32,454 nt of DNA from Candidatus Aenigmatarchaeota archaeon (GTDB taxonomy: Archaea; Aenigmatarchaeota; Aenigmatarchaeia; QMZP01): contig JADHWJ010000010.1 in NCBI GenBank assembly GCA_016783545.1, positions 1-32,454 of the forward strand. The letters run 5' to 3'. Position numbers and translations under genes: made by a program. Shown piece after piece: positions 2,125-23,725 of the stretch. Position 1 is the first letter of the stretch, and every line of letters begins with the position of its first letter. The notes under the pieces are model-generated. The model was given only the letters and a program-made list of their open reading frames with translations, did not search any database and was not told where the DNA came from.

Positions 2125-2200
2125 TTTTTTATTATATATATCCCTCTAATTAGACAATATAAAGACAAAGGGGCCCAGGGTATAGGGCGGGTCCCAATAT

Positions 2201-2222
2201 CCGAAGGAGCCAGGCCCTTCGG
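2201..2222 (-). terminator. Hairpin after the coiled-coil gene
   Basis: CCGAAGG (2201-2207) and CCTTCGG (2216-2222) form a perfect 7-bp stem with an 8-base loop, beginning 10 bases past the stop of the minus-strand gene. No T-run follows directly on the minus strand, so it is a probable but not classical intrinsic terminator. Confidence 0.5.
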
Positions 2223-2231
2223 TAGGCATGG

Positions 2232-2753
2232 CTAGAAGATGAAGTGGCATACGACGCTAGCGACGCCGGTGGCCACGGCGATCCAGAATATGGTCTGAAA
2301 CCGCTGGCACTTCACTCTGGCTTTGTTGAAGTCGATCCGGAGGGCTTCCTCACGCCTAGAAACCATCTGAAGATTGTTGGCTATCTGCTCGATCACAGGC
2401 TCGTAGTCCTTGATTTGAGCCAGGTAGGACTTAACCTGTCTCTGTGCTTCTTCGAGCTGCTTCTTGACAGTTTCGAAGTTCTTTCTCCACCCTTCGCCTT
2501 CGCTGTTCGCCTCGGAGAGCAAGGCGTTCGTCTGCTCAAGACAATCTGACACAGATCGATACCCCTCTTGCATCTCAGCCAGTTCCTGCTCGAGCTGGCC
2601 TTTTCTGGTCTCACCGCTTTCGATGTTTCTCCTGAGGATTTCTTCTTGTTCCTCAAACTCCGCGAGCTTCAAGTCTCGATCCGCGATAGTGGTTTTGAGA
2701 ATCACTATCTCCTCTCTGAGTTGTGCAACTACTCCGTCTTCCGGTGCACTCAT
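2232..2753 (-). CDS. Coiled-coil protein with C-terminal membrane anchor (173 aa)
   Basis: The start is set at the ATG at 2753 because GGGAGGT lies about six bases upstream; an upstream in-frame ATG has no such site. Residues about 5-150 are dominated by Glu, Gln, Lys and Leu in heptad-like spacing (for example LRRNIESGETRKGQLEQELA) and predict a long coiled coil. A single hydrophobic segment (FWIAVATGVASVVCHFIF) ends the protein, so it is probably tail-anchored with the coiled coil in the cytoplasm. No enzymatic motif is seen. GC-rich codon use and its ribosome-binding site set it apart from the flanking archaeal genes, so a bacterial or phage origin is likely. The family is not recognised. 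Confidence 0.75.
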   Translation of the reverse strand: MSAPEDGVVAQLREEIVILKTTIADRDLKLAEFEEQEEILRRNIESGETRKGQLEQELAEMQEGYRSVSDCLEQTNALLSEANSEGEGWRKNFETVKKQLEEAQRQVKSYLAQIKDYEPVIEQIANNLQMVSRREEALRIDFNKARVKCQRFQTIFWIAVATGVASVVCHFIF

Positions 2754-3090
2754 GGTACTACCTCCCATTGTGAAAGAAACGACACAAGTACCAAAGACTC
2801 TCACTGAACAGTTCAGGAGAGACTAATCTCTATGAGAAACAACCCACCAAAGTGGTGGTTATTACGGAATTTATTCTATTTGAACTACCAAAAAATCGGC
2901 AGTTTTAACGGATATGAAAAGCTAGGATTTCTTTTACAAAATCGATAGCAAGGTACTATTGCATAGTAATAAACGCGTTTAGTATATAAAAGCATATATA
3001 ACGATGTTATATTGTTATTTCTTTCTATATTTTATAATTTATATAGTAATCTTTATTAGTATAAATTACTATATATTTATAGGAGGAAAT
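2754..3090. other. Intergenic region, island A edge to vapB promoter
   Basis: This 337-base stretch holds the leader of the minus-strand coiled-coil gene, including the CCACCA-AAG-TGGTGG hairpin at 2844-2858. From about 2880 it becomes AT-rich archaeal DNA. TATA-like stretches near 2980-3000 (TATATAAAAGC, ATATATAAC) probably serve vapB. An open frame in 3004-3090 is too hydrophobic and AT-driven to be convincing. Confidence 0.5.
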
Positions 3091-3339
3091 ATGGGTATAA
3101 CAAAAGTGACAAGAAACTTTCAGGTAACTTTGCCGAAAGATGTTAGGGAGATGGAAAAAATAAACATAGGTGATAAGTTCATTGTAACAATAGAGGATGA
3201 TGAAATCATTATGAAAAAAATAAAAAGTGAAATATTAGATAGAAGTTTTGGTGTTTGGGGCAAAGGCAGCTCTGGTGTTGAATTCACAAGAAAAATAAGA
3301 GATGAAGCAGAGGAAAGAGAAAAGAGGCTGGGAATATGA
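3091..3339 (+). CDS. vapB: AbrB/MazE-type antitoxin (VapB)
   Basis: An 82-residue protein with an N-terminal swapped-hairpin DNA-binding domain of the AbrB/SpoVT type: ITKVTRNFQVTLPKDVREM, then KINIGDKFIVTIEDDEIIMKK. The C-terminal tail (about 50-82) is charged and helical and would wrap its toxin. The ATG at 3091 is chosen because AGGAGG lies directly upstream (3081-3086); the 29 codons upstream in frame are an AT-rich hydrophobic artefact. The stop overlaps the toxin start by four bases, so the pair is translationally coupled. Such antitoxins usually repress their own operon, although no operator is identified here. Confidence 0.88.
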   Translation: MGITKVTRNFQVTLPKDVREMEKINIGDKFIVTIEDDEIIMKKIKSEILDRSFGVWGKGSSGVEFTRKIRDEAEEREKRLGI

Positions 3340-3719
3340 CAGGAGTTCTAATAGATACTGATATACATATTGACTTTTTAAGGAATGTGGAAAGTGCAAA
3401 AAAAACATTCCAGGATATTGTAGATGAAAAAATAATAGGACTCTCTTCTGTTATAACAGAGGCTGAACTTTTTTCAGGTAAAGAATGTAATAATCCAGAA
3501 AAGAAAATTGCTGTTGAAAATCTACTCTCATTAACTTCAAAAATAGAAGTAGATTCAATAATAGCAAAAAAAGCAGGTAAAATAAGAAGGGTGTATAACA
3601 TCCCTATGATTGATGCTTTAATTGCTTCTTCAGCCATTGCAACAGATTCAATTCTTTATTCAAGAAATCTAAAACATTTCAAGAAAATAAAAGAGCTGAA
3701 ATTCAAGGTGCCATATTAA
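3336..3719 (+). CDS. vapC: PIN-domain toxin (VapC)
   Basis: A 127-residue PIN-domain ribonuclease, the usual partner of VapB antitoxins and typically a cleaver of tRNA or rRNA. The acidic active-site set is visible: D7 and D9 in VLIDTDIHIDFL, E42 and E44 in SSVITEAELF, then an Asp in IPMIDALIASSA and another in ATDSILYSRNLKHF. Length and motif order fit VapC. It overlaps vapB by four bases. The target cannot be inferred from sequence. Confidence 0.9.
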   Translation: MTGVLIDTDIHIDFLRNVESAKKTFQDIVDEKIIGLSSVITEAELFSGKECNNPEKKIAVENLLSLTSKIEVDSIIAKKAGKIRRVYNIPMIDALIASSAIATDSILYSRNLKHFKKIKELKFKVPY

Positions 3720-3740
3720 GAGCTAAACCTATATATAATT

Positions 3741-4031
3741 ATGCCAGAAGCGCCTTTAACAATAGTATTTGAGATGGTTGCAACAATTATATCCAATACA
3801 ATAGGCACCCTTGGAAAAATAGCAAGTCTTTTTGGAAAGCTTTTGGAAAGCCTTGGTGTTGTCTCAACATATGGCGGAACAATTGGACTTGTTGTTTCAG
3901 TTCTTGTTCTGGCAATAGTTGGATATTTTCTTGCAAAATTCTTCCTAGGCTCTGGAAAAACAATAATTATTCTGACAATTGTTGGATTAGTGCTGTTTTT
4001 CCTTGCTGTTATGGGAATAATGGTATATTAA
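3741..4031 (+). CDS. Small membrane protein (96 aa)
   Basis: An amphipathic N-terminal part (residues 1-35, with TIGTLGKIASLFGKLLESLG) is followed by two strong membrane helices (about 46-67 and 73-95). Gly and Ser are frequent in the helices. The family is not recognised. A TATA-like CTATATATAAT lies only a few bases before this ATG, so either the gene is read through from vapC or translation starts at a later Met (3774). It precedes the U32 gene by 22 bases in the same direction and may be in one operon with it. Confidence 0.55.
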   Translation: MPEAPLTIVFEMVATIISNTIGTLGKIASLFGKLLESLGVVSTYGGTIGLVVSVLVLAIVGYFLAKFFLGSGKTIIILTIVGLVLFFLAVMGIMVY

Positions 4032-4053
4032 AGCCAGTTCCCAATATTTTCTT

Positions 4054-5226
4054 ATGAAGAAACCAGAACTGCTCGCACCTGCCGGGAACTTTAGATGCCT
4101 CACTGCAGCAGTAAATGCTGGTGCTGATGCTGTTTATTTCGGTCTGGAGGATTTCAATATGAGGCAGTCAGCTGAAAATTTCTCAATCAAGGATCTAGAA
4201 AAAATAAACAAAATCTGTGGGAAAGTTAAGAAATATCTCACATTGAACACAATTGTCTTTGACTCTGAACTAGAAAAGATAGAGGAAACAATCAGGAAAT
4301 TAAAGGGTAGAGTGGATGCAATCATATGCTGGGACATGTCTGTTATACAACTCTGCAAAAAATACAAGATACCTTTTCATGTCTCAACGCAGGCAAGTAT
4401 TGCAAACAAAGAATCTGCTAAATTCTATAAAGATCTTGGAGCTGAAAGGATAATCCTTGCAAGAGAGCTAAATTTAGAGCAAATCAAAGAGATTTCGAAA
4501 ATCATTAATGTTGAGGTTTTTGTTCATGGTGCAATGTGCGTGTCCATAAGTGGTAGATGTTTTACTTCACAGTTTCTTTTCAAAAAAAGCGCAAACCGAG
4601 GTGAATGTCTGCATCCATGCAGGAGAGCATACAAAGTAACAGACCACGAAGGAAATGAACTGAAATTAAAAAATAATAGAGTGATGTCAGCCAAGGATCT
4701 TTGTACATTACCCTTTATTGAAGAACTGAAAAATGCTGGCATATCAGCTTTCAAAATCGAAGGCAGGAATAGGCAGCCTGAATACGTTGATACTGTTACC
4801 AGAGTCTACAGAAAAGCAATTGACAAAAAGCTGACAAAAAAAGACGAGCTGATATCTGAACTGGAAAGTGTCTATAATCGGGATTTTTCATCTGGGTTTT
4901 ATCTTGGAACACCCACATCAGACGATTTCACAGGTGATGAAAATGGTAGCCAGAAGAAAACCAAAGTTTCCACAGGCGTTGTTGATAACTATTTTAGAAA
5001 GCAGGGAGTGGCTGCTGTCAATGTACAGTCAGGGGAACTGAAGATCAATGATGAAATCATTGTCACAGGAGATACAACTTTTTTCAGGAAGAAAATAAAG
5101 AGCATGGAAATAGATCACAAAAAAATAGATATTGTTAAAAAAGGCCAGGCCGTAGGAATAAAATTGCCTTTATGTAGGGTTAATGATAAGGTCTATCTAG
5201 TTGTGGAAAGAACTAAACGTCAATAA
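4054..5226 (+). CDS. U32 peptidase-family protein
   Basis: A 390-residue member of the U32 family (bacterial relatives include YhbU/TrhP and RlhA, which act in tRNA or rRNA hydroxylation; some were described as collagenases). The family opening ELLAPAGNF is at the start, and the signature EVFVHGAMCVSISGRCF sits near residues 155-171, followed by NRGECLHPCR with two more conserved Cys that may hold a metal cluster. The C-terminal ~80 residues form a small beta-barrel like EF-Tu domain 2 (GVVDNYFRKQGVAAV, then KINDEIIVTG). That suggests an RNA-modification rather than a proteolytic role. The stop overlaps the convergent frameshifted methyltransferase by 14 bases. Confidence 0.88.
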   Translation: MKKPELLAPAGNFRCLTAAVNAGADAVYFGLEDFNMRQSAENFSIKDLEKINKICGKVKKYLTLNTIVFDSELEKIEETIRKLKGRVDAIICWDMSVIQLCKKYKIPFHVSTQASIANKESAKFYKDLGAERIILARELNLEQIKEISKIINVEVFVHGAMCVSISGRCFTSQFLFKKSANRGECLHPCRRAYKVTDHEGNELKLKNNRVMSAKDLCTLPFIEELKNAGISAFKIEGRNRQPEYVDTVTRVYRKAIDKKLTKKDELISELESVYNRDFSSGFYLGTPTSDDFTGDENGSQKKTKVSTGVVDNYFRKQGVAAVNVQSGELKINDEIIVTGDTTFFRKKIKSMEIDHKKIDIVKKGQAVGIKLPLCRVNDKVYLVVERTKRQ

Positions 5227-5768
5227 CAGCAAATTCTGAATCATATCCTCTGGAAAATTTTGCACCAAACCCACCTAATTCTGGAATATCAGATAAATCG
5301 CAATTATTTCTTACAGTGTCATTATGAGCCACATATATCAGCCTTCCATTTTCTCCTAGATTTTCCAAAAAATAACTAGTTAATTCAGAGATACATAATT
5401 TCCAATTATCTATGTAGAAGGGGCATGTAATCATAATATCAAACGGTCCATCACTAAATTCATATTCACTAAGATCAATCTCAATAAAGTTGGCTGCGTA
5501 TTCTGGCAACTTCAGTTTTTGCCTGTTCGATTGCCTCATCCCATGTGTCAATACCAAACGGAACAATATTATGGCCGCTGAATTCCATTAGGAATTTCAG
5601 GAGCATTCCATTTCCACAACCGGCATCTAAAACTTTTCCATCCCTATCAATAAGTGGTAAGATAGATGCATATTGAAGTTCTGGAGGATTCCTATACCCA
5701 TTCATCTCAATAGAAAAATACTTTCTTTGTTCTTCATACCATCTTTCAGATGTTTTTTCTACTAACAT
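5213..5768 (-). pseudogene. Class I SAM methyltransferase, frameshifted
   Basis: Two overlapping minus-strand frames make one methyltransferase. The N-terminal frame (5768 to about 5520) holds the SAM-binding motif VLDAGCGNGMLLKFL and motif II-like VPFGIDTWDEAIEQAK. The C-terminal frame resumes with LKLPEYAANFIEIDLSEY, then FDIMITCPFYIDNW and GRLIYVAHNDTVRNN. The junction lies at an A5 run on the minus strand (T5 at 5516-5520). Removing one A would give AKLKLPEY and restore a single frame of about 184 codons. This is a genuine indel or a homopolymer sequencing error. No substrate can be assigned. Confidence 0.8.
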
Positions 5769-5803
5769 AAAAGAAATAATGTTTGTTTACTTAAAAACAC
5801 AGT

Positions 5804-5857
5804 TTAGAGGTATTTCCCAATCTTCTCAATCATTCTTTCAGCGCTTACTTTATCATG
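5804..5857 (-). pseudogene. Possible C-terminal gene remnant
   Basis: After the MgtE stop, the minus strand continues with a short open stretch reading HDKVSAERMIEKIGKYL and then a stop. This looks like the end of a gene, for example the C-terminal helix of a glycosyltransferase, without its body. It has no start or ribosome-binding site and could be chance. Confidence 0.25.
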
Positions 5858-5863
5858 AATTGT

Positions 5864-7114: not shown

Positions 7115-7165
7115 AAATATAATATTGATTCCCCTTAAATTTATAATAGGTCTTCAACCCAGATG

Positions 7166-8881: not shown

Positions 8882-9197
8882 TCGGAAACCTCTTTTGAGT
8901 ATTAATAGTGTTTAATTATATATAAAATAAAGCTTGATATAAAGAGTATTATATATATAAATTAATACATGCTTTTTATTACTAAAATTTTTCTTAGCTT
9001 TTTTAAATCGCTGAATAATCAAGCGATGATACATTACTCTTTTACTATTATGATCTATAAAATTGCGAATAGTATAGTCCACTACTTGATGGTAGATATA
9101 CTCTTTTGATAATATGTTGTATTCGCTATTAATTCATTTGTATAATATGATGGTTCATATCATTTGGTATATATATTTACTAATAAATGTCTAGAAT
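8882..9197. other. AT-rich intergenic region (316 bases)
   Basis: No convincing gene is seen. TATA-like stretches (ATATATAAATTAAT near 8955) could serve the minus-strand antiporter gene. Short imperfect inverted repeats occur (TCGCT with AGCGA around 9008-9026), but no known RNA family is recognisable. It is mostly low-complexity A/T sequence. Confidence 0.4.
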
Positions 9198-9620
9198 TTA
9201 ACCTACGTAATTAGTTTCTTCTCCCTTTGGCTTTACCATTGGGAACTGTATTGGTGGAGGAAGCTGCAAATCTTCGGACATGTAAGAAATCTTCAATAAG
9301 CACCTTCTGAACAAGTGGTTCAAAATTTCTATGGAAACATCTTCTGGGACAGCCTTCTTTTTTTTCCATTCATCCAAAATTAGCTTGTTATCCTTTGCAA
9401 GATAGACAAGATTTCCGCCAACTGTTATTTCACCTATTTTTGGTTCATATGTTGTTGAAAATTCAAATTCAATATCCAATGCTTTTTTTGTAATATCAGA
9501 AACACTAACTTCCTTTACATCAAGAATCTTTGGAGTGCTGTTTATTTTAATCTCTTCTTTACCAGGAACACCTGTTTTTTTCCCTTCAACTGCTTTAAAA
9601 CCAAATCCAATTACTGGCAT
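9198..9620 (-). CDS. Conserved archaeal hypothetical protein (140 aa)
   Basis: This opens with MPVIGFGFKAVEGKK and ends with a proline-rich segment (QLPPPIQFPMVKPK) after a helix (DVSIEILNHLFRRCLLKISYMSEDL). The middle is beta-rich (DIEFEFSTTYEPKIGEITVGG, read as two strands). The fold pattern, four long strands followed by a C-terminal helix, is reminiscent of SecB-like chaperones, and small archaea carry similar unnamed proteins. That link is inference, and no function is assigned. A hairpin (GCCTGA 9650-9655 with TCAGGC 9674-9679) lies in its upstream leader. It diverges from the DJ-1-like gene. Confidence 0.7.
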   Translation of the reverse strand: MPVIGFGFKAVEGKKTGVPGKEEIKINSTPKILDVKEVSVSDITKKALDIEFEFSTTYEPKIGEITVGGNLVYLAKDNKLILDEWKKKKAVPEDVSIEILNHLFRRCLLKISYMSEDLQLPPPIQFPMVKPKGEETNYVG

Positions 9621-10800: not shown

Positions 10801-11511
10801 TAAATTTTTTCTTAAAAACTCGAAGTTCTTTTTCTGTGTTTCTATAACAGGATTTGTTTCAACTGTAACCAAAACATTTTTTGGTATTAGTCTTAATAGC
10901 TTTTTCCAGGGAAAGTCACCTTCCCCAAAGTTCAGATGTTTATCTATTTTAGAATCAATATAACCATCTGAAATATGAACCATCTTTGGTTTCAGCTTCA
11001 AGAACTGTTTAATGTAATCCATATAATCTATGCCCCTTATCTTTGCAGCGGCTATTGCATGCGGGATGTCAAGACAAAAACCAGAGCCAGTTTCCTTAAT
11101 AACTCTTTCAACGCCTTCAAAATCCCCGCCGAATTTATTGACGACATTCTCTATGAGAATTCTCTTATCATTTATCTTCTTCAGAATACTTATTGTGGTT
11201 TCAATGTCATTCTTTCCTGATGGGGAACTGGGATGGACTATTATAAATTTCGAAGAAAAATCATCTGCAAGCTTCTGAGTAAACCTCAATGCACCCATAC
11301 TTTGTTCCTCTCTGTCAGGATTTGCAATGAATGTACCAACAACATGATGAGATGAATGTATTACCCATGGTGTTTTATACTTTTTTAAGAAGCCATAATC
11401 AGTGCCTTTTATGCTCATTACTTCTACAAAATCAGTTATTTTGTTCTTTACAAAATATTCAACGTATTTTCCCTCTTTTAGCTTTGGATAGATTTTTATT
11501 CCAAGTTTCAT
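10798..11511 (-). CDS. AP-endonuclease-2/xylose-isomerase-like TIM-barrel protein
   Basis: A 237-residue protein with the (beta/alpha)8 pattern of the sugar phosphate isomerase/endonuclease IV superfamily. Likely metal ligands sit in TPWVIHSSHH, KFIIVHPSSPSG, KRILIENV, GFCLDIPHAIAA, KMVHISD and LVTVETNP. Whether it acts on DNA or on a sugar is unclear. It is shorter than Nfo endonuclease IV and lacks its full metal-ligand set as far as I can see. The stop codon overlaps the last three bases of the tRNA gene. Confidence 0.8.
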   Translation of the reverse strand: MKLGIKIYPKLKEGKYVEYFVKNKITDFVEVMSIKGTDYGFLKKYKTPWVIHSSHHVVGTFIANPDREEQSMGALRFTQKLADDFSSKFIIVHPSSPSGKNDIETTISILKKINDKRILIENVVNKFGGDFEGVERVIKETGSGFCLDIPHAIAAAKIRGIDYMDYIKQFLKLKPKMVHISDGYIDSKIDKHLNFGEGDFPWKKLLRLIPKNVLVTVETNPVIETQKKNFEFLRKNL

Positions 11512-11562
11512 AACAATATTTACTTTCCAATGTTTTTATCTATAAACCGATAATATTTAACC

Positions 11563-13266
11563 ATGCAACCATTTGATAAGTTCAGGAATGACGTATTGAC
11601 TATATTATCAAAGTCAGATATACCTAAAGACAGGATAGAAGCTATTTTAGAGGTTCCTCCCCAGCCAGAAATGGGAGACCTGAGCCTGCCTTGCTTTAAA
11701 TTAGCAGCAGAACTTCAGAAAGAGCCTAAAAAAATAGCTGACGAATTGGCCATAAACACAAATGCATCAGGTTTGGTGAAAGAGATAAGAATAGCAGGCC
11801 CGTATCTTAATTTTTATGCCGACTGGAATAAACTAGGACAGCTTCTCATTGAAGAAATCCTCAAGCAAAAAGACAGCTATGGTTCTGGAAAGAACACCTC
11901 CAAATTCATGGTTGAGTTTTCACATCCAAATACGCACAAAGCATTCCATATAGGTCATATGAGAAACATATCAATAGGAGAATCACTTTCAAGAATACTT
12001 GTTTTCTCAGGTTCCAAAGTTGTTAGGGCAAATTATCAGGGTGATATAGGACCCCATGTTGCAAAATGTATTTGGGGTTTCATAAATCTATACAAAAGCA
12101 AAGAGCCTAAAAAAGACAGGGGTAGATGGCTCGGAGATGTTTATGCAGAAGCCAGCAAAAAAATGACCACAGACGAAAAAATAGAGAAAGAAGTAACAGA
12201 AATAAACAAAAAGATATATGCAGGCGACAAAGAGCTTGCTGTCATTTGGAAGAAAACAAGGCAGTGGAGCCTTGATTATTTTGAGAGCATATATAATGAT
12301 TTCGGTGCAAAGTTTGACAGGTTTTATTTTGAGGCAGAGGTTGAAAAGAACGCACTAAAGATATCAGAACAGCTGCTAAACAAAAAGGTGGCAAAACTCA
12401 GCGACGGTGCGATAATAATGGACCTGGAGAAATACGGGCTAAGCGTATGGCCTCTTGTAACAGGCAACAAAACACCGCTTTATTCCGCAAAGGATCTTGC
12501 TCTTGCAGAACTTCAGATAAAGGAATACAATCCTGATAAGATAATACATGTTGTTGGCTCTGAACAGAATCTTCATTTTAGACAATTAATAAAAACATTG
12601 GAGATGACAAAGCCAAAGATAGCAGAAAAAGAATATCATCTATCATATGGTCTTGTGAATCTTCCTGAAGGTAAAATGAAATCAAGGGAAGGAAAGGTCA
12701 TATTATACGAAGACTTGAAATCAGAGATTTTCAAATTAACAAATAAGATAACAAAGAAAAATAATCCTAAACTAGGAAAAGCACAGCTCGAAAAGCTATC
12801 AATGGATATTGCACTGGGTGCACTGAAATATAGCATGATATCACAGTCACCTGATAAGGTTATAATCTTTGACTGGGAGAGGGCATTGGATTTCAGGGGA
12901 AACTCAGCACCATATATACAATATACATATGCAAGAGCTAATTCAATTTTTAGAAAAGCAAAAGCAAGTTCTGTTCCAAAATATGATGCCTCTCTACTCA
13001 AAGACCCAAAGGAAAGAGTCCTTTTGAAGACAATGATGGAGTTTCCAAGAATTGTTTCAGACTCTGCCAGAGATTATAGACCTCACTATGTTGCAAATTA
13101 TGCATACAAGCTTGCTACAATTTTCAATGAGTTCTATGAAGCGGTTCCTGTTCTGGTTGATGATAAGGATCAAAAGAATTCAAGACTTGCTCTAATTGGT
13201 ACATTTCAGGTTGTAATGAAGAATGCGTTGTTTCTTTTAGGAATAGAAGCTCCTGAGAAGATGTGA
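11563..13266 (+). CDS. argS: Arginyl-tRNA synthetase
   Basis: A class I synthetase of 567 residues. The N-terminal additional domain recognises the tRNA D loop (about 1-110). The HIGH motif is H129-IGH-132 in KAFHIGHMRNI, and the signature loop is KMKSR at 371-375. The C-terminal anticodon-binding domain starts around 455 with the DALR-like helices (YIQYTYARANSIF). The enzyme charges tRNA-Arg in the cytoplasm. The stop codon directly abuts the stop of the convergent ino1 gene, with no gap. Confidence 0.96.
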   Translation: MQPFDKFRNDVLTILSKSDIPKDRIEAILEVPPQPEMGDLSLPCFKLAAELQKEPKKIADELAINTNASGLVKEIRIAGPYLNFYADWNKLGQLLIEEILKQKDSYGSGKNTSKFMVEFSHPNTHKAFHIGHMRNISIGESLSRILVFSGSKVVRANYQGDIGPHVAKCIWGFINLYKSKEPKKDRGRWLGDVYAEASKKMTTDEKIEKEVTEINKKIYAGDKELAVIWKKTRQWSLDYFESIYNDFGAKFDRFYFEAEVEKNALKISEQLLNKKVAKLSDGAIIMDLEKYGLSVWPLVTGNKTPLYSAKDLALAELQIKEYNPDKIIHVVGSEQNLHFRQLIKTLEMTKPKIAEKEYHLSYGLVNLPEGKMKSREGKVILYEDLKSEIFKLTNKITKKNNPKLGKAQLEKLSMDIALGALKYSMISQSPDKVIIFDWERALDFRGNSAPYIQYTYARANSIFRKAKASSVPKYDASLLKDPKERVLLKTMMEFPRIVSDSARDYRPHYVANYAYKLATIFNEFYEAVPVLVDDKDQKNSRLALIGTFQVVMKNALFLLGIEAPEKM

Positions 13267-15772: not shown

Positions 15773-15833
15773 TAAAGCTTTTAAACCCTTTTTATATAAT
15801 TACCATATACAGTTAAATTAAGGAGTAAAAATT

Positions 15834-16576: not shown

Positions 16577-16581
16577 TAAAC

Positions 16582-16776
16582 ATGAAATGCTCAGTTTGCA
16601 ATGAAACAATTCCTGAAGGAAAAGGAAAGATGTTCGTCAAGAACAATGGAAGGATTTTCTATTTTGACAAATCCAAATGTGAGAATAATTTTAAGATGGG
16701 AAGGGAGATTAAAAAGCTGAAATGGGCCAGAGTAAAGGAAACTGTAGAAAAACCAGCACCTAAAACAAAAAAATAA
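16582..16776 (+). CDS. rpl24e: Ribosomal protein L24e
   Basis: A 64-residue 50S protein with the L24e zinc finger: KCSVCNETIPEGKGKMFV and then FDKSKCENNFKMGR. The last finger residue is in the CENN segment, so the set may be Cys3 plus a non-Cys ligand or a partial site. The ATG at 16582 follows AGAGGTG; an in-frame GTG at 16573 lies inside that site. The Lys- and Pro-rich tail is typical. This is the last backbone gene before island B. Confidence 0.95.
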   Translation: MKCSVCNETIPEGKGKMFVKNNGRIFYFDKSKCENNFKMGREIKKLKWARVKETVEKPAPKTKK

Positions 16777-17032
16777 CCTTTAAAAGTACTAATTCTACTA
16801 ATTATTTTATCTGAACGTAATATTCGCTCTCAAAGGCAATTTTACTATCTTTCGTATATTCAGAACTAACAACGTGTTGGTTCTCTAGAGAATAGTAGTT
16901 TTCTTACTTTTAGGACTATTTCTTAAATCATTTTAACTGTCTGGGAATAGTCTTGAGTAGAAAGGAGTGCTTATCGAAGCAAAAATTGTATTGGCATTTT
17001 ATAGACATGGCGCGCACTTTGAGGAGAATGTG

Positions 17033-18058
17033 ATGGCAAGACCGGTGACGTTGTTTACGGGTCAGTGGGCAGATCTCCCATTGGCAACACTGGCGGAGAA
17101 GGCGGCAGGTTGGGGATACGAGGGGTTGGAGCTTGGCTGCTGGGGCGATCACATGGACGTACGCAAAGGCGCCGAGAGCAAGGAGTACTGTGACGGACAG
17201 AAGGCCATTCTCGAAGCGAACGGGCTAGAAGTTTGGGCCATCAGCAACCATCTAGCCGGCCAGCTTGTGCTCGACAACATTGAGCCACGCCACATGCAGT
17301 TCTGCGGCGACGAAGCGATCACCACAGAATTCGAGGAGGCAGGCTACATCACGCCCGAAATCGAGAGAGCCGTTCACGAGTGGGCCATCGAAGAGATGAA
17401 GTGCACAGCCCGGGCGGCCAGGAATCTCGGAGTCGAGGTGGTCTGTGGTTTCACCGGCAGTTCGATCTGGCACATGATCTATTCGTTCCCGCCAGTCGAT
17501 GATGCGGACATTGATGCCGGCTTCGAGTTGCTACTCGAGCGGTGGGATCCAATTCTCGATGTCTTCGAGGAATGCGGTGTCATGTTCGGTCTCGAGGTGC
17601 ACCCTACTGAGATTGCGTATGATATCGTGACTGCTGCACGCGCGATCGATGCCCTGGGAGACCGCGAAGAGTTCGGATTCAACTTCGATCCGAGCCATCT
17701 TCAATGGCAGAGCGTGGATCCGGTTTGTTTCATTAAGGAGTTCAGCGACCGGATCTATCATGTCCATATGAAGGACTGCGCTGTCACACTCAACGGTCGC
17801 GCAGGAATCCTGAGCTCACATCTGAACTTCGGCGACCCGAACCGGGGCTGGGACTTTCGGTCACTCGGTCGCGGCGACGTTGAGTTCGAGGAGATCATCC
17901 GGACCCTCAACCAGATCGGATACAATGGCCCGCTCTCGGTAGAGTGGGAGGACAGCGGCATGGACCGAGAGCACGGCGCTGCCGAGGCCTGCAAGTTCGT
18001 GAAGGAGATAGACTTCCCGCCGAGCGAGCAGGCATTCGACGCCGCTTTCGATGAGTAG
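17033..18058 (+). CDS. Sugar phosphate isomerase/epimerase-like TIM-barrel protein
   Basis: A 341-residue protein of the AP_endonuc_2/xylose-isomerase-like TIM superfamily. Probable metal and catalytic residues are E188 and H190 (GLEVHPTE), D219 and H222 (NFDPSHL), H243 and H245 (YHVHMKD) and E304 (LSVEWEDSGMD). The ATG at 17033 has GAGGAG six bases upstream; the in-frame GTG at 16967 abuts its ribosome-binding-like sequence and is unlikely. The neighbouring oxidoreductase suggests joint catabolism of a sugar or polyol. Such pairs are common in bacterial sugar-use operons. The specific sugar is unknown. Confidence 0.88.
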   Translation: MARPVTLFTGQWADLPLATLAEKAAGWGYEGLELGCWGDHMDVRKGAESKEYCDGQKAILEANGLEVWAISNHLAGQLVLDNIEPRHMQFCGDEAITTEFEEAGYITPEIERAVHEWAIEEMKCTARAARNLGVEVVCGFTGSSIWHMIYSFPPVDDADIDAGFELLLERWDPILDVFEECGVMFGLEVHPTEIAYDIVTAARAIDALGDREEFGFNFDPSHLQWQSVDPVCFIKEFSDRIYHVHMKDCAVTLNGRAGILSSHLNFGDPNRGWDFRSLGRGDVEFEEIIRTLNQIGYNGPLSVEWEDSGMDREHGAAEACKFVKEIDFPPSEQAFDAAFDE

Positions 18059-18072
18059 TTTCTGAATCGTTG

Positions 18073-18103
18073 TAACAGGGCTCTCTGGACCGGGGCCCTG
18101 TTA
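18073..18103 (+). terminator. Hairpin between the two island B genes
   Basis: TAACAGGGC (18073-18081) pairs perfectly with GCCCTGTTA (18095-18103), 15 bases after the stop. It lacks a T-run, so it may attenuate or protect an mRNA end rather than terminate fully. Confidence 0.45.
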
Positions 18104-18148
18104 TCACCTCTCTTGAATCAATGTTGGACAATGGAGGGTTAGAAACCC

Positions 18149-19384
18149 ATGATAAGTTTTCCAGATAGAGTGCCTGACCAGATCAGAGTGGGGCTTGTTG
18201 GACCAGGTCCTGAGGCGTTTATTGTTCAGCACCACATAAACGCCATGAGGGAAACAGGTCTGTTCGACATCACCGGAGCGGTCTGCCAGAACGCGAAGTT
18301 TTGCGGATGGACGGCGAAGAACCTTCGTATACCCGAGTCGCGGGTGGATCTCAATCTCAATTGGCTACTCCACAAAGTCGCTCTGATGGAGGAGACACCT
18401 GATATCATCGATATTGCCACGCCGACACATCTGCATGCCGAGCAGGTCATGCTTGCGCTGGATCACGTCGACATGGTTGTCTGCGACAAACCCCTGGTTA
18501 CGACATGGAAGGAATTCTGCGCGATCAGGGACAAGATGGACACTAGTCAGAGTATCGTCATCACATACAATCATCGTTTCTTCGAGCCTGTTCAACGGCT
18601 CCGGGCGATGGTCAATGACGCAAAATCCATTGGCTGTGACATTGACAACGTGTCGAGTTGGTTCTTTCAACAATGGCTCCTGGAGGACCCAAAGAACCGA
18701 CAGAGTGCCTGGCGGAAGGTCCACCCACTCGGCGGGGCATGGGACATCTGGACCCATGCGTACGACCTCATGAGTACGGTTCTCGGTTGCGATGGCGTCG
18801 ATGTCAGTGAATCTTCGCTGGTGCAGAATGGTGCTCATGGCGGCGCTGCCCTTGATACAGGGGATTGTATCGTGACCTTTGGTGATGACCGTCAGGCGAA
18901 TATCGGGTTCTCCCAGGCGAAAGAGGGACATCAAGACGACATTGGTAGCATGCTCCGTATCGAAGGTGTTTGGTGGATGTGGCGCCTGGAGATGAGCGGC
19001 GGGGACGTGCTCTGGATGTCAACAGCGCCCGAGCCCAGCCCCTGGAACATGGGAGACTGGAAGCCGATCTTCCGTGGGTCAGAAGAGGCCTTCAAATATG
19101 AAGAGAGTGCGGCCTTCGAGAAGACACCGCCGGGGCATTCGATGGGCTGGCCGGATGCCTGGTACACCCTCTGGGCGTCGATCGCTGGTTACTATTATCA
19201 GGTGTTCACTCCTGAATTCGGGACGGACAATCTCCACCCAGCGATGCTGCTCGACATACCGCTTATGGATGAAGGCGGCGAGCAGATCACCAAGTTCGTG
19301 CTGGCTGCTGCCAAATCATTCGAACAGGAAGGTGCGGATGTGAGCTTCAAGTCGATCGAAGAGGAAGATGATGAAGCTGAGTAG
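18149..19384 (+). CDS. Gfo/Idh/MocA-family oxidoreductase
   Basis: A 411-residue NAD(P)-dependent dehydrogenase family member. The N-terminal Rossmann fold has GLVGPGPEAF (15-24), IDIATPTHLHAEQVMLAL and CDKPL (112-116), the equivalent of the EKP motif. The C-terminal domain has GGAWDIWTHAYDL (195-207), carrying the usual catalytic Asp and His. GGAGGG precedes the ATG by about 11 bases. It follows the TIM-barrel gene by 90 bases and ends before an intrinsic terminator, forming a two-gene unit. The substrate is probably a sugar, inositol or derivative. The acidic tail (EEEDDEAE) is unusual. Confidence 0.9.
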   Translation: MISFPDRVPDQIRVGLVGPGPEAFIVQHHINAMRETGLFDITGAVCQNAKFCGWTAKNLRIPESRVDLNLNWLLHKVALMEETPDIIDIATPTHLHAEQVMLALDHVDMVVCDKPLVTTWKEFCAIRDKMDTSQSIVITYNHRFFEPVQRLRAMVNDAKSIGCDIDNVSSWFFQQWLLEDPKNRQSAWRKVHPLGGAWDIWTHAYDLMSTVLGCDGVDVSESSLVQNGAHGGAALDTGDCIVTFGDDRQANIGFSQAKEGHQDDIGSMLRIEGVWWMWRLEMSGGDVLWMSTAPEPSPWNMGDWKPIFRGSEEAFKYEESAAFEKTPPGHSMGWPDAWYTLWASIAGYYYQVFTPEFGTDNLHPAMLLDIPLMDEGGEQITKFVLAAAKSFEQEGADVSFKSIEEEDDEAE

Positions 19385-19417
19385 CACCAACCTTCAGACG
19401 AATCCAGAAAGTTCGTC

Positions 19418-19449
19418 AGCACAGATACGACGTTGTGTCTGTGCTTTTT
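19418..19449 (+). terminator. Rho-independent-type terminator of island B
   Basis: AGCACAGA (19418-19425) and TCTGTGCT (19438-19445) form a perfect 8-bp stem that can extend by about three further pairs. A TTTTT run (19445-19449) follows at once. This is the classic bacterial arrangement, 33 bases after the oxidoreductase stop. Confidence 0.85.
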
Positions 19450-19522
19450 ATTGTCGTGTAAGAGGGATAAAACAACAATAAAACCTTTAAAAATATTATT
19501 CTAATATTCTTTATATTGTAGA

Positions 19523-19542
19523 AATTACTTTCAAAAGTAATT
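19523..19542. repeat. Inverted repeat in the AT-rich spacer between islands B and C
   Basis: AATTACTTT and AAAGTAATT are separated by two bases. It could be an operator or recombination site for the downstream small-protein operon, but it could also be chance in AT-rich DNA. Confidence 0.35.
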
Positions 19543-19657
19543 CTATTATCACTAGCTTTTTTCTATTCAGAGAGAACCAGAGACTTTTTCAGGGTCAGCA
19601 CTATTTCTCAGGAAATCTAAGTGTCCCTGGAAGGTCTTGTGTTTAGGGGAAGAAAAG

Positions 19658-19816
19658 ATGGATGTTGTTATCATGATGCTTTTCTTCGCGTTCGTTGTAC
19701 TAACATTCTTGTCAGTGAACATGGCATCGTTTGGTATTCTCATTTCCACAGCTATTCTTGGCGGGATCTTGATAGTATGGATTTCTTCAATAGCATTCGT
19801 GCGTCGGTTTTTGTGA
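19658..19816 (+). CDS. Small membrane protein 1 (52 aa)
   Basis: The frame starts at an ATG preceded by AGGGGA. It encodes two hydrophobic helices (about residues 3-20 and 24-46) and a short basic end (FVRRFL). There is almost no soluble part. The stop overlaps the ribosome-binding site GAGGAG of the next gene. It is the first of four consecutive tiny membrane proteins. The family is not recognised. Confidence 0.6.
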   Translation: MDVVIMMLFFAFVVLTFLSVNMASFGILISTAILGGILIVWISSIAFVRRFL

Positions 19817-19825
19817 GGAGATGAC

Positions 19826-19942
19826 ATGGAAGGCAACGGATACAAAAAGCATTACAGGCAGATAGTTGTCCGATGGGAGGTTACGGCTGTTGTGCTTCTG
19901 GCACTGTTCGCTGGGATTTTCATGATCTATTGGCTATGTTAG
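19826..19942 (+). CDS. Small membrane protein 2 (38 aa)
   Basis: The ATG at 19826 has GAGGAG upstream. The product has a basic N-terminus (GYKKHYRQIVVRW) and one membrane helix (VTAVVLLALFAGIFMIYWL). By the positive-inside rule the N-terminus faces the cytoplasm. The stop overlaps the GGGGGAG ribosome-binding site of the next gene, indicating coupled translation. Confidence 0.55.
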   Translation: MEGNGYKKHYRQIVVRWEVTAVVLLALFAGIFMIYWLC

Positions 19943-19950
19943 GGGGAGCC

Positions 19951-20109
19951 ATGAAGCGGATAACGAACATATTTCCGATCGGTGCAGGAACGATACTTGT
20001 TGGGGCTGTAGTTGCCGAGCGATGCTCTGTCGTTGGCACTGCTATCGCACTGGTAGGTGCTGCGATGATCGTGGTCGGCATTATTATGGTCATCCGAAAT
20101 TCGACATGA
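19951..20109 (+). CDS. Small membrane protein 3 (52 aa)
   Basis: The ATG at 19951 follows GGGGGAGCC. Two Gly/Ala/Val-rich helices (IFPIGAGTILVGAVVA and VVGTAIALVGAAMIVVGIIM) are joined by a short Arg-Cys turn. The high glycine and alanine content suggests tight helix packing. The family is not recognised. It is part of the same run of tiny membrane genes. Confidence 0.6.
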   Translation: MKRITNIFPIGAGTILVGAVVAERCSVVGTAIALVGAAMIVVGIIMVIRNST

Positions 20110-20124
20110 TTTGGAGACAATGAC

Positions 20125-20277
20125 ATGTTTCCATTCGACCGAAGAAAAAGGGTACGACTGCAGATGCGGTGTATCATTATAGCCGCCATAGCCATACTCT
20201 TTCTGATATTCTTTGTCTTTAATAACAGTGGGAGCTGTGAACTGCAGAGAGTTGACCCATCACAGTTTGGCGGGTGA
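20125..20277 (+). CDS. Small membrane protein 4 (50 aa)
   Basis: Starts at the ATG at 20125, with a GGAG about nine bases upstream. A strongly basic N-terminus (FDRRKRVRLQMR) precedes one membrane helix (CIIIAAIAILFLIFFVF), and a short C-terminal tail carries one Cys (SGSCELQRVDPSQ). The predicted topology puts the tail outside. A lipobox is not evident. The ACP gene follows 33 bases later. Confidence 0.55.
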   Translation: MFPFDRRKRVRLQMRCIIIAAIAILFLIFFVFNNSGSCELQRVDPSQFGG

Positions 20278-20310
20278 AGTGAAAATCAACTGTACCGAAA
20301 GGAGGGACCA

Positions 20311-20583
20311 ATGTCCGAGAGAGTAGAGGACCAACTGAAGGAGATGATTGTCGATCGGCTGTTCCTCCAGATCTCGCCTGATGAGATTGGCGATGAGACT
20401 GATCTGGTGGAGACACACGAAGTTGATTCAGTCCAGCTCCTGGAGATTGTCATGGGGCTGGAAGAGGTGTTTGGCGTTTCGTTCGATGATGAAGAGTTCA
20501 GCCTGGAGATATTCGCGACAGTCAGCAGCATCGCAGATGCTGTCCGGGCAAAGCTCAAAGGAGAAACCGATGGGGAAGACTAA
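20311..20583 (+). CDS. Acyl carrier protein
   Basis: A 90-residue carrier protein. The phosphopantetheine site is D39-S40-V41 in ETHEVDSVQLLEIV, followed by the typical GLEEVFGVSFDDEE and a last helix (VSSIADAVRAKLKG). AAAGGAGGGACC lies directly before the ATG. Unlike the archaeal-type relative at 15476, it keeps the serine. No fatty-acid or polyketide genes accompany it; it sits between small membrane proteins and a zinc-ribbon protein, so it may be a dedicated carrier for an unknown thioester product. Confidence 0.88.
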   Translation: MSERVEDQLKEMIVDRLFLQISPDEIGDETDLVETHEVDSVQLLEIVMGLEEVFGVSFDDEEFSLEIFATVSSIADAVRAKLKGETDGED

Positions 20584-20929
20584 GGCTGAGATGAAGCTGA
20601 TTCACCGTAAGAAACGAAGGAATAGACGTCCGACCAAGGGCCTCATGAGAAGGGAGCGTCGTGCAAGGGAGGCAGGATATTCTAGCCTGGCTGAGTATGT
20701 TCAGAAGGTGGGCAAGCCCAGGGAGAAGGTTTCGTATTTTTACGAACCGCCCAAACCAACTCCGAAAGCCCCAGAACCTCCGAAGCCCAAGTCAACTTCT
20801 AACACGAGACAGTTCAAGTGTACGTGGGGGGAATGCAAGGGGAACATATTCACGGCAAAATCCTCAGTGGGTGGTGGAATGCCGGAGTGTCCGAGATGTG
20901 GCTCATCTATAGATGTACACGCAGCCTGA
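20570..20929 (+). CDS. Basic zinc-ribbon protein (119 aa)
   Basis: The ATG at 20570 overlaps the ACP end by 14 bases and has AAAGGAG upstream inside that gene. The N-terminus (1-55) is very basic (HRKKRRNRRPTKG, MRRERRAREAGY). A proline-rich linker (PPKPTPKAPEPPKPK) follows, then a C-terminal zinc ribbon with C84, C89, C107 and C110. The layout suggests a nucleic-acid-binding protein. The family is not recognised. Overlap with the ACP gene implies coupled expression. Confidence 0.75.
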   Translation: MGKTKAEMKLIHRKKRRNRRPTKGLMRRERRAREAGYSSLAEYVQKVGKPREKVSYFYEPPKPTPKAPEPPKPKSTSNTRQFKCTWGECKGNIFTAKSSVGGGMPECPRCGSSIDVHAA

Positions 20930-20944
20930 TAAGGAGGAGAACCA

Positions 20945-21178
20945 ATGCCTGGATTTGAAGGTGACGGGCACTACGAATGCGTGGTAGTGCCAGATGTGGA
21001 AGGGGCATTCGAGGTCGGTGAACTCTACTACGCATTCGAGGAAGGTAGCGCCGTCATGGTTTATGACGATGCGCATGGCGATATCGAGTTCACTGAGGAA
21101 GAGTTCGAGCGCTGCTTCGAGGTTGACGAGCTCGACGACGACGCGCCGGAGGGCGACCCTGCGTTGGTTGACAAATAG
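20945..21178 (+). CDS. Small acidic protein (77 aa)
   Basis: AAGGAGGAG lies just before the ATG. The protein is highly acidic (FTEEEFERCFEVDELDDD) with a likely small beta-rich fold at the start (HYECVVVPDVEG, then FEVGELYYAFEEGSAVMVYD). Acid content contrasts with the preceding basic zinc-ribbon protein. The family is not recognised. Confidence 0.65.
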   Translation: MPGFEGDGHYECVVVPDVEGAFEVGELYYAFEEGSAVMVYDDAHGDIEFTEEEFERCFEVDELDDDAPEGDPALVDK

Positions 21179-21199
21179 GCAAATCCCTACGTACCGTAG

Positions 21200-21880
21200 G
21201 AAAAGAAGGAGGATGTTTCGACCTCTACGACGTTCGTGTTGGTCGCGTCTGACGGTGAACGGCGATTTCTACACACAATGGGCGCGAACGCTGTTTTCTG
21301 TGCCGAAGACGTGAACATGGAGATTGTCAAGCAGGCCAAGATTCTTCACGTGGCCGGTACGTACCTCATGCCCACATTCGACGGCGAACAGACCGCAGAG
21401 ATTCTGCGGCAAGCCAGGGAGGATGGTGTTCGCACTTGTCTGGATACCGCCTTCAACGACCGGCTCGATGAGCAAGCGTGGCGGGATGGGATCTTCCCAT
21501 GTCTGCCTTATCTGGATTTCTTTGTGCCCTCAATGGAGGAAGCGGAAGAGATTACGGGCAAAAGCGATCCCGCGAAGATGGCAGCAGTCTGTCATGACAA
21601 AGGCTGCGAGATCGTCTGCATCAAGATGGGAGGAGAAGGGTGCTATGTCTCAGACAGTGGTCACGGCATCCAAATCCCGAAGTTCGATGTCGAGGCCAAG
21701 GATACGTCCGGCGCCGGAGACTGCTGGTGCGCAGGATTCCTGAAAGGCGTGCTCGAAGGCTGGCCTCTCGAAGAGTGCGGACGATTCGGTAATGCTGTGG
21801 CGGCCTTTGGTGTCCAAGCCATTGGCTGTAGCACAGGCGTGACATCATTTGACGAGATCAAGGAGTTCATGAGTTCATAG
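21200..21880 (+). pseudogene. PfkB-family sugar kinase, 5'-truncated
   Basis: The C-terminal two thirds of a ribokinase/PfkB kinase. The open frame begins after a stop at 21197-21199 and enters mid-domain at DVSTSTTFVLVASDGERRF. It keeps the ATP-site and anion-hole motif DTSGAGDCWCAGFL with the catalytic Asp, but about the first 100 residues, including much of the substrate site, are missing. The only in-frame starts (GTG at 21236, later ATGs) lack a proper ribosome-binding site and give about 214 residues against roughly 310 expected. A short palindrome (CCTACG-TAC-CGTAGG, 21186-21200) sits exactly at the break. It is probably a dead gene or a junction artefact. Confidence 0.8.
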
Positions 21881-21973
21881 TTTCAGAAAGGAGGAAAGCA
21901 GCATCCTGGATGTTTTACATGTTACGTCCCTGAATGAGGTGGGGAGTACCTTGAGTAGAAGGAGAGACTGAAA

Positions 21974-23668
21974 ATGGGAGAACTCATTGAGTTGAACCCA
22001 GGTCCGACGAGCCCATTGCCTCTAAAAGTAGGGGCATTTGGGACGTTTGACAAGCGTCTGTCGAAAGAATCGGACAGGACTCGTGCACAGAATATCGTGA
22101 GAGACGGTGCACAGGTCTTGGCCGACGGCCTTCGGACGATCGACGGCAAGCCAGTAGAAGTTGTGTGGAGTCCTTTGATGGTACAGGACGAGATCACAGC
22201 AGATCAGCTTGCCAGGATGTTCATCGAGCAAGGCGTTCGGGCTCTTGTATGTCTGCCTGATACGTGGGCATGGCCACAGAAGACTCTGTTGAGCTTCTTG
22301 GCTCATTTCCCAAGAAAGACCCCGATCGGCTTAACCTGCGGTAATGCAGGCCCTAAGCCGGGAGTGGTCTTTGCGCACGCGAGTTGCGGTGCATTGGCTC
22401 AGTCGGGTATTCTCATGGGCCTGAACGTTGGTACGTGGCCTGACACAGGGATTCGTCCCAAGATGACCCCGGAAACGGCTGAAGCCATGCTGGATTGGGG
22501 ACAAGCAGCCATTACCTACACTGGACTGAGGGGAAGACGGGTGGTCGAGTGGGGTCACGACAGCATGGGCATGGAGACTGCGCTGGCTCATGTCATCCCG
22601 ACGCGAACCCAGTTCGGGCTCGAAATCACGCGTATGGACATGAAGCTCCTGGCTGACTTGCTTCAGAAGGACGATGGGTATGACAAGAGCGAGCTGAAGG
22701 GTCTGGAAGACTGGATGTATGAGAAGTTGGGAGACAGGATCCAGATCCGCGACGAGGCCGACAAGGAACGATTCAAGACCATGCTGAAAATGTACCTCAT
22801 CGTACGCAACATCATGGAGGAGGTCAATGCCATCGGTGGGGGGTTTATGTCTCAGCTCCCCTGGGGGTCTGATCCTCGGGGAACCCCACTCCCGGTCGCG
22901 GATGCCATGGAATCCCTGTTCAATTCCACTTTCGACCATCGCGGCCCAAAGCCCCCCACTCCTTACGCCACGGAGAAGGATACGCAGGGGTTGCTCACCA
23001 TGATCTTCTTCACCGGCCTCAGCGGCGGCGGACCACCTCTTTTCATGGACTTCCGGAAGGTCTGGGAGCCATGGGAGATCAAGAAGGTCGCTAGGGAGAT
23101 GGGGATTCCTTATGAAGGGGAGCCTTGGGCAGAAAGAGGATTCGTCGACGGCGACAATAGCGGTTCGGCGTCGTTCGACTGGGCTGAGAAGCCTGGTGCT
23201 TCGCCTGATGAGTGTATGGCGCGCATAAGCATGCCACAGGCGGATCCGGACTACTTCCCAGGCCGCGGTAACAGCGTGACATTCTTCACTCCCGGCGGCG
23301 TCGAAGGAGTGGCTGGAAGGCTCGCGTATTTCCAGCCGACAGACGAATTCACGCTCTTCTGGGATGATGCGGAGACCTTCGAATTACCAGAGCCTCTGGC
23401 AGAGAAGGTGGCTTCCACATCCACCAAGGAATGGCCTCATACGTTCGTTGGCTTCAAGAGGGCTAATATGGGCCAGGCTAAGCAGTTCGGATGCCCAGCC
23501 AATCATTTCAAGCTGATAGCGAACTTGATGCCGGCGCGTGTTGAGCACTTCTTGGATATCTCCGGAATCCGCAACATGAATGCCATTGCGTGGCCGGAGA
23601 TTAGAGAAGGGCATCGGCCGGTACCACTCATCAAGATGTTGAATGGTGCTGTGCCGCCTGCACCGTAA
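21974..23668 (+). CDS. L-fucose/L-arabinose isomerase-like protein
   Basis: The 564 residues have the layout of the FucI/AraA-type ketol-isomerase superfamily: an N-terminal domain (LKVGAFGTFDKRL, then EVVWSPLMVQDEITAD), a middle domain with VEWGHDSMGMETA (192-203) and FGLEITRMD (214-222), and GGPPLFMDFRKVWEPWE, similar to the conserved segment of FucI. The Mn2+ ligands (Glu, Asp, His in FucI) cannot be assigned with certainty. GGAG sits nine bases before the ATG. Together with the kinase remnant and the island B enzymes it points to deoxy-sugar or pentose metabolism. The substrate is inferred only from family. Confidence 0.8.
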   Translation: MGELIELNPGPTSPLPLKVGAFGTFDKRLSKESDRTRAQNIVRDGAQVLADGLRTIDGKPVEVVWSPLMVQDEITADQLARMFIEQGVRALVCLPDTWAWPQKTLLSFLAHFPRKTPIGLTCGNAGPKPGVVFAHASCGALAQSGILMGLNVGTWPDTGIRPKMTPETAEAMLDWGQAAITYTGLRGRRVVEWGHDSMGMETALAHVIPTRTQFGLEITRMDMKLLADLLQKDDGYDKSELKGLEDWMYEKLGDRIQIRDEADKERFKTMLKMYLIVRNIMEEVNAIGGGFMSQLPWGSDPRGTPLPVADAMESLFNSTFDHRGPKPPTPYATEKDTQGLLTMIFFTGLSGGGPPLFMDFRKVWEPWEIKKVAREMGIPYEGEPWAERGFVDGDNSGSASFDWAEKPGASPDECMARISMPQADPDYFPGRGNSVTFFTPGGVEGVAGRLAYFQPTDEFTLFWDDAETFELPEPLAEKVASTSTKEWPHTFVGFKRANMGQAKQFGCPANHFKLIANLMPARVEHFLDISGIRNMNAIAWPEIREGHRPVPLIKMLNGAVPPAP

Positions 23669-23688
23669 GTCGCAAACATTCAGATAGG

Positions 23689-23713
23689 ATAGGAAGCCCA
23701 AAAAGCTTCCTAT
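23689..23713 (+). terminator. Hairpin at the end of island C
   Basis: ATAGGAAGC (23689-23697) pairs perfectly with GCTTCCTAT (23705-23713) around a 7-base loop. It starts 20 bases after the isomerase stop and lies 12 bases before the dphB stop. It lacks a T-run but is placed as a terminator for the plus-strand genes. Confidence 0.6.
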
Positions 23714-23725
23714 TATAGTGTCATC

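Follow-up and report, generated by a model that had tools for sequence, protein, structure and literature searches.

The stretch of DNA analysed here, referred to as the window, is the entire contig C1 (32,454 bp) of the 885,693-bp draft genome of a Candidatus Aenigmatarchaeota archaeon (18 contigs, 70.33% complete, 0.11% contamination). Its backbone is archaeal, with genes for FEN1, VapBC, a RadA with inteins, a DphB-type methylase and inositol-phosphate synthase. Gene content and genome size point to a DPANN-like archaeon with a small genome. Set into this backbone are three islands, A, B and C, which are rich in guanine and cytosine (GC) and carry genes of bacterial type. These islands are the cargo of three copies of one construction, in which a leader is followed by foreign genes and then by a short core.

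A first-pass annotation, made from the sequence alone, had described three GC-rich segments that differ from the backbone, and this difference is real (GC 0.54–0.56 overall). GC is 0.536, 0.558 and 0.541 in segments 2170–2766, 17009–19444 and 19798–23673, respectively, compared with 0.347 outside GC-rich segments in a sample of 352,047 bp. This sample, referred to below as the blind sample, comprises the window plus 319,593 bp in 17 stretches from other contigs, chosen before any motif was known. The main cargo genes of the window have a third-position GC of 0.64–0.71. The flanking genes, held by the annotation to be intact and archaeal, are indeed complete and of archaeal type: XPG/FEN1 and PIN/VapC with its partner lie around island A, and L24e (identified by sequence) and a TP_methylase of the DphB type lie around islands B and C. 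The predicted sugar-metabolism genes are likewise present (Table 1), except that the PfkB kinase lacks approximately its first 96 profile positions. NCBIfam assignments for the GFO/IDH/MocA, PfkB and fucose-isomerase-like proteins fall far below the curated cut-offs and do not assign exact substrates. Island C also holds small open reading frames (ORFs) besides the named genes. The three islands stand, but the units to which they belong reach further than the extents originally given, and the annotation missed that the islands copy one construction.

Table 1. Features of units A, B and C in the window (E, expect value; z, folding of the sequence relative to shuffled versions; nt, nucleotides; aa, amino acids).
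Feature	Position	Strand	Evidence or remark
Unit A	2142-2951	-	leader to core
Archaeal-type promoter of unit A	about 2980-2990		just upstream of leader A
Leader of unit A, AT-rich	2758..2951	-	profile E 1.2e-7 as training-set member; 0.17 when trained without the window
Cargo A, 173-aa coiled-coil protein with C-terminal hydrophobic segment	2232..2753	-	ORF with Shine-Dalgarno GGGAGG; Pfam coiled-coil matches weak, below cut-off
Core A, TGTCTAATTAGAGGG	2142..2156	-	pattern match; preceding 60 nt fold no better than shuffles (z -0.1)
Unit B	16766-19466	+	leader to core
Leader of unit B	16766..16967	+	E 1.7e-7, profile trained without the window; paired with core at 19452
Cargo B, xylose-isomerase-like TIM barrel (sugar epimerase/isomerase superfamily)	17030..18058	+	PF01261 E 1e-37
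Cargo B, GFO/IDH/MocA oxidoreductase	18149..19384	+	PF01408 E 9e-10
Terminator-like hairpin of unit B	19418..19445	+	60-nt window z -5.4
Core B, TGTCGTGTAAGAGGG	19452..19466	+	pattern match
Unit C	19462-23733	+	leader to core
Leader of unit C, directly behind core B	19462..19661	+	E 1.5e-10, profile trained without the window
Cargo C, acyl-carrier-like protein	20311..20583	+	PF00550 E 1.3e-9
Cargo C, basic protein with C-terminal CxxC pair	20570..20929	+	no family match
Cargo C, acidic 77-aa protein	20945..21178	+	no family match
Cargo C, PfkB kinase without N-terminal third (decayed or rearranged)	21236..21880	+	PF00294 E 4.3e-37, profile positions 97-298 of 302
Cargo C, L-fucose-isomerase-like protein	21974..23668	+	PF07881 E 9e-27
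Terminator-like hairpin of unit C	23688..23714	+	60-nt window z -3.3
Core C, TGTCATCTTAAAGGG	23719..23733	+	pattern match

All units follow the same order. An AT-rich, archaeal-looking promoter and a leader of approximately 200 nt precede the GC-rich, bacterial-type gene or genes, which are often followed by a hairpin and then by the core. The consensus of the core, common to the 3' borders of the islands, is TTTATATTGTCAATTAAACGGGATAT. Leaders contain an AAGAGAA box, the motif GTCTT-N8-GTCTTTGG and a Shine-Dalgarno sequence, and reading of the sequences adds a TATA-like box, a box resembling TCAAAGAGAA and, in many leaders, a small hairpin. The GTCTT-N8-GTCTTTGG motif adjoins the Shine-Dalgarno sequence and scored 14.98 bits in a motif search of 31 upstream regions at width 18 (10.92 bits for shuffled input). 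Leader B, for example, carries a CCTTTAAAA promoter-like box, a CTAGAGAA box and AGTCTT...GAAAGGAG. The leader sequence GTCTTTTGAAAG (for instance within window 19600–19661) resembles bacterial boxA, and could hint at antitermination. At the other end of the unit, the 60 nt before the core fold on average better than shuffled versions (mean z of -1.96 over 31 units, against -0.37 in control windows), with hairpin stems that differ in sequence from unit to unit.

The construction is repeated throughout the genome. The search for it covered 473,003 bp (53% of the genome), a sample partly chosen because it holds cores or recombinases. A nucleotide profile built from 23 leaders, themselves selected by the presence of a core, marks 32 places at E < 0.01 in this sample and none in the reversed sequence. 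For 31 of the 32 leaders, a core follows within 5 kb on the same strand, and these are 31 different cores. The corresponding control counts are 5 (same strand, upstream), 3 (opposite strand, downstream) and 5 (opposite strand, upstream). Nine of the 32 leaders are outside the training set, and eight of these nine have a core. The 31 leader-core pairs are spread over 12 of the 18 contigs. The core is itself enriched in this genome, with 44 matches to a loose pattern against 14 for the reversed pattern, and 23 against 0 for a strict one.

The association also holds in sequence chosen without regard to it. Segmentation of the blind sample yielded 18 GC-rich segments, 15 of which have both leader and core, 11 of these 15 leaders being members of the profile training set. 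Of the remaining three, one is a native low-complexity gene (L016), and the others measure 139 and 154 bp. A profile trained on 20 leaders of other contigs recovered leaders C and B in the window (E of 1.5e-10 and 1.7e-7, respectively), reached A only at 0.17, and found nothing in the reversed window. Similarly, when a profile from 12 leaders of contigs C1–C8 was applied to 11 blind stretches of C8–C18, the eight best matches (E 6e-8 to 0.15) were true units, and the best reversed match had an E of 0.7. Three low-GC units were detected via the leader (C13:34084–34239, C13:34637–34706 and C12:31718–31893, the last without a core). Leaders are detectable by profile and not by pairwise search, since a BLAST search of the genome with leader B returned only itself and two weak, short matches.

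These results also settle several details of the first-pass annotation. The AT-rich DNA it placed between islands B and C is real, and is the leader of unit C. The CCTTTAAAA box it reported before each island starts at about 16776 for B and at about 19484 for C, but is absent before A. Its proposal that archaeal promoters drive the islands fits B and C and the TATA-like word found near 25 of the 32 leader starts (11.3 expected).

The cargo varies widely. Units elsewhere in the genome carry an M54 peptidase, an MFS protein, pilin-like proteins with N_methyl motifs, a VIT/VWA protein and a short-chain dehydrogenase. In 22 of 31 units the leader and the longest ORF share a strand, and the other nine hold mostly short or broken cargo. 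One unit with leader and core (L061, C7:28788–30514) contains four transfer RNA (tRNA) genes (Asn GUU, Thr GGU, Thr CGU and Glu CUC). Since a leader also precedes this unit, it is not merely a translation signal. Part of the cargo decays, as indicated by an interrupted response-regulator gene and the truncated PfkB.

Core-terminated units recur in sister genera, with slots in common and cargo that differs. In the genomes of 23 relatives from the same family, the strict core pattern has 28 matches against 5 for the control, and 12 of the 23 genomes contain a match; in 37 genomes outside the family there are 5 matches against 13. Judged by eye, a hairpin, a T-run or a tRNA lies directly before the core-type site at 20 of 27 relatives' loci. 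The slot between L24e and DphB is occupied in the window and, with other cargo, in relative G015 (L24e synteny judged from translations). The 3' side of the inositol-phosphate-synthase gene is empty in the window and occupied in G015 and G004 (genes 66% and 72% identical). The gene neighbouring DJ-1 in the window has no adjoining unit, and its 68% identical counterpart in G020 has one. A slot before rpoE is occupied in three species of one genus, by eye alike in G007 and G020 and different in G023, and G010 has three cores in tandem. None of this genome's cargo of at least 60 aa recurred in 61 relatives' loci (tblastn, 1e-5), and the fucose isomerase of the window had no match in 40 relatives. 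At one locus of G023 (L110, contig C62), ThiF/E1-like and ubiquitin-like genes were seen by eye before a core.

A zinc-ribbon/helix-turn-helix (HTH) protein of approximately 100 aa adjoins cores. It was first spotted in the genome of this archaeon (G000), G007 and G010, and has strong matches (E < 1e-15) in 13 of 41 genomes, 11 of them among the family's 24. A core-type site lies within 850 bp of the centre of the zinc-ribbon gene at all 10 loci inspected (15 sites), three of which are those through which the gene was discovered; the reversed pattern occurs at none, and the shuffled expectation is 0.92. Against NCBIfam, the G000 protein matches the IS1 transposase (E 4.4e-5) and the IS1/IS1595 zinc domain (E 1.1e-4), both below cut-off. 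This resemblance is confined to the InsA part of IS1, and the protein has no catalytic domain. The G015 protein had no match among solved structures. From its position beside cores, the zinc-ribbon protein is a candidate core-binding partner.

Tyrosine recombinases (PF00589) are found in 34 of the 41 genomes. G000 has three, two of them encoded side by side on C7 (L142, C7:39767–41456), the second with an extra N-terminal part. Comparable pairs are indicated by coordinates in G006, G009, G015 and G017. In G015 (L147, contig C63), an XerC/D-type recombinase gene at 10935–12073 is followed by a hairpin and a core, and here the recombinase is apparently cargo.

The strongest statement concerns structure: leader, foreign cargo and core occur many times, in fixed order and on a fixed strand. 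This recurrence in fixed order is the reason to consider capture or exchange at the core. Under this favoured interpretation, to which a probability of roughly 0.5 is assigned, a cassette is repeated through the genome, every island is what one of its copies carries, and the core serves for site-specific capture or exchange. Foreign pieces the size of a transcription unit would be added to, or swapped between, intergenic slots at the core, which would act as the attachment or exchange site. The cargo would then be expressed from the resident leader. The small zinc-ribbon/HTH protein, with its weak likeness to the DNA-binding part of IS1 InsA, might bind the core, and cutting would fall to a separate recombinase. 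Overall operation would be integron-like, with platforms scattered instead of gathered in one array.

The recurring units suggest a previously undescribed route by which archaea collect foreign genes. A literature search, whose scope left out subscription journals and preprints, found no description of such units. How bacterial genes enter small archaeal genomes and come to be expressed there has yet to be explained. A leader and a site that recur in fixed form make gene entry testable, as the site can be counted in related genomes, the gain and loss of units traced between strains, and the core and zinc-ribbon protein assayed in vitro. If true, archaea would have arrived independently at a second way of doing what integrons accomplish in bacteria. 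A wider version can be offered tentatively: this archaeal family may possess a gene-capture system that has no sequence relationship to integrons, in which core and promoter-leader form dozens of dispersed platforms that take up, express, exchange and lose bacterial genes, operons and tRNA arrays, with an InsA-like protein binding the site. In its boldest form, the bacterial composition of the cargo would be kept for service to a bacterial partner.

Several observations weigh against capture at the core. Leaders and cores vary considerably among themselves, and a leader is missing for 12 of the 43 cores. The hairpin reaches significance (z < -2) in only 14 of 31 units, against 5 of 31 control windows, and is absent in unit A. 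The leader profile has no match at E < 0.01 in the 61 relatives' loci (230,120 bp), so that sharing outside this genome is limited to the core and, judged by eye, the layout. Neither an excision product nor a pair of empty and filled alleles was seen, and the moving piece has no defined 5' end. In addition, no catalytic enzyme is linked to the core. A tyrosine recombinase was considered for this role, and is weakened as a candidate by the absence of PF00589 matches in the core-bearing genomes G007 (87% complete) and G023 (66% complete). Lastly, the reverse complement of the core is archaeal-promoter-like: at 4 of the 10 zinc-ribbon loci, the core-type site overlaps, on the opposite strand, the promoter of the gene itself. 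This use as a promoter would suit a regulatory role.

The main rival builds on such a role. Under it, the units are a regulon of immobile genes, acquired from bacteria one by one through ordinary transfer and later brought under common expression signals. The leader would be a 5' untranslated region that controls expression, and the core, governed by the zinc-ribbon protein, would serve as a terminator or antisense promoter. The promoter boxes of the four zinc-ribbon genes fit this explanation, as do leaders so diverged that they have motifs alone in common. So do the 12 leaderless cores, several of which adjoin toxin–antitoxin-like genes. Those at C12:24026–25185, C4:18575–19150 and C13:19101–19837 lie just upstream of archaeal promoters, next to operons that by eye are RelBE-like, RHH/RelE-like and AbrB/PIN-like. 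However, it is implausible that some 30 unrelated genes, compositionally unameliorated, independently gained one leader and one 3' site. Moreover, the tRNA array has a leader, and relatives share slots filled with different cargo. Ordinary interdomain transfer into DPANN-type archaea likewise places bacterial metabolic genes in small archaeal genomes, but the pieces acquired here have a common leader and 3' site. A regulon of separately acquired genes is thus rather unlikely, though it is the alternative to be taken most seriously.

It is considerably less probable that the units are decaying pieces of viruses or plasmids (one or more) of the archaeal family, integrated at many places. Runs of small ORFs, the tRNA genes, the acyl-carrier-like gene and broken cargo such as the truncated PfkB and the interrupted response regulator would suit such an origin. 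Yet a PHROG scan of 10 cargo-type proteins, a part of the cargo, matched only two (an acyl-carrier moron and an MFS-like family of unknown function), and neither structural nor replication genes were among them. Every unit also comes with a leader and a core of its own. A viral origin was rejected, as viral contigs contained neither the fucose isomerase nor the strict core pattern.

Very improbable, in turn, is host-directed expression, whereby a bacterium is the host of the archaeon, which retains genes of bacterial composition because their products or RNAs act in this partner. Bacterial-type N_methyl pilins, a response regulator, a PilZ domain protein and tRNAs in the cargo speak for such a lifestyle, as do the strong Shine-Dalgarno sequences and a composition unadapted to the archaeon. 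Against this, several cargos are broken, there is no known partner, and nothing indicates export. The PilZ gene, furthermore, sits in a GC-rich piece of C7 in which no core is visible to the pattern.

The likeness to integrons deserves closer comparison. As with integron cassettes, cargo is mostly a single gene or small operon of varied origin, looks promoterless, and lies behind a resident promoter. A hairpin of variable sequence precedes a conserved 3' site, tandems occur occasionally (unit B then C in the window, and the three consecutive cores of G010), and tRNA and possibly toxin–antitoxin genes are carried. An attC site has the motifs RYYYAAC ... GTTRRRY flanking a hairpin. None of 31 3' regions contains this pair, against a shuffled expectation of 0.32. 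The three PF00589 proteins of G000, a genome 70% complete, score 42.4, 83.8 and 204.6 bits against the integron-integrase model, for which the cut-off is 265. The protein scoring 204.6 bits is of XerA type (220.0 bits against a cut-off of 220). Since both the attC and the IntI tests failed, integron membership was rejected. The archaeal units also differ in that each has its own leader of some 200 nt, and in that they are scattered over many contigs instead of being arrayed beside intI and attI, with tandem pairs being exceptional. Archaeal integrons from archaeal metagenome-assembled genomes (MAGs) are described as attC arrays with IntI (PMC9668308). It is hardly conceivable that the units are canonical integrons or their cassettes.

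Two other systems offer partial parallels. The zinc-ribbon/HTH protein connects the units to the IS1 family through its weak matches, but it lacks a catalytic domain, and no inverted end pair was found around the unit. Only the right-hand core is evident, and neither pairwise alignments nor a motif search of the 5' regions gave a clear second copy, no dedicated test being among these searches. IS1 ends presumably contain CCAACTTA, close to the GTCAACTTA of relatives' cores, which is a lead and not a test. The Xer/dif (pdif) modules of plasmids are small gene modules next to short, partly palindromic sites. The archaeal units are similarly small modules adjoining short sites, but the core does not have the dif layout, and some of the genomes with cores lack XerA-type and other recombinases.

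The annotation had left a choice between acquisition of bacterial modules and a chimeric contig. Acquisition is borne out by the spread of the unit over 12 contigs and by core-terminated units in other genera of the family. A chimeric assembly or contamination, suggested by sharp composition steps and the 70% completeness of a draft MAG, has next to no probability and was rejected because the unit recurs across the genome with a common leader and 3' site, in the correct order and strand at 31 of 32 places, with the same site in unrelated assemblies of the family, complete neighbouring genes and a reported contamination of 0.11%.

A search for the donor phylum, recommended in the annotation, gave a partial answer. 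The relatives of the fucose isomerase are bacterial and 56–58% identical (two Omnitrophota, one Spirochaetes MAG and UASB270), but they do not fix a phylum. The four bacterial loci contained no relatives of the other nine island proteins tested (1e-3). Of 99 genomes around the Omnitrophota genome concerned, 63 match the oxidoreductase, and only distantly (at best 26% identical). Identification of a donor via synteny was consequently rejected on both counts. A bacterial origin of the core was also rejected, with 2 matches against 4 for the control in the four bacterial genomes. Because the core is not enriched there, the core site looks archaeal while the cargo looks bacterial.

Other features of the window lie outside the three units. 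No RNA families were detected in the window, and tRNAs alone in nine further loci. A very AT-rich stretch (24544–26142, GC 0.25–0.30) encodes a 532-aa protein without a Pfam match, the C-terminal part of which appears nuclease-like by eye. At 28814–32266, the RadA/Rad51 gene has two intein regions, with Intein_splicing in two stretches and LAGLIDADG domains.

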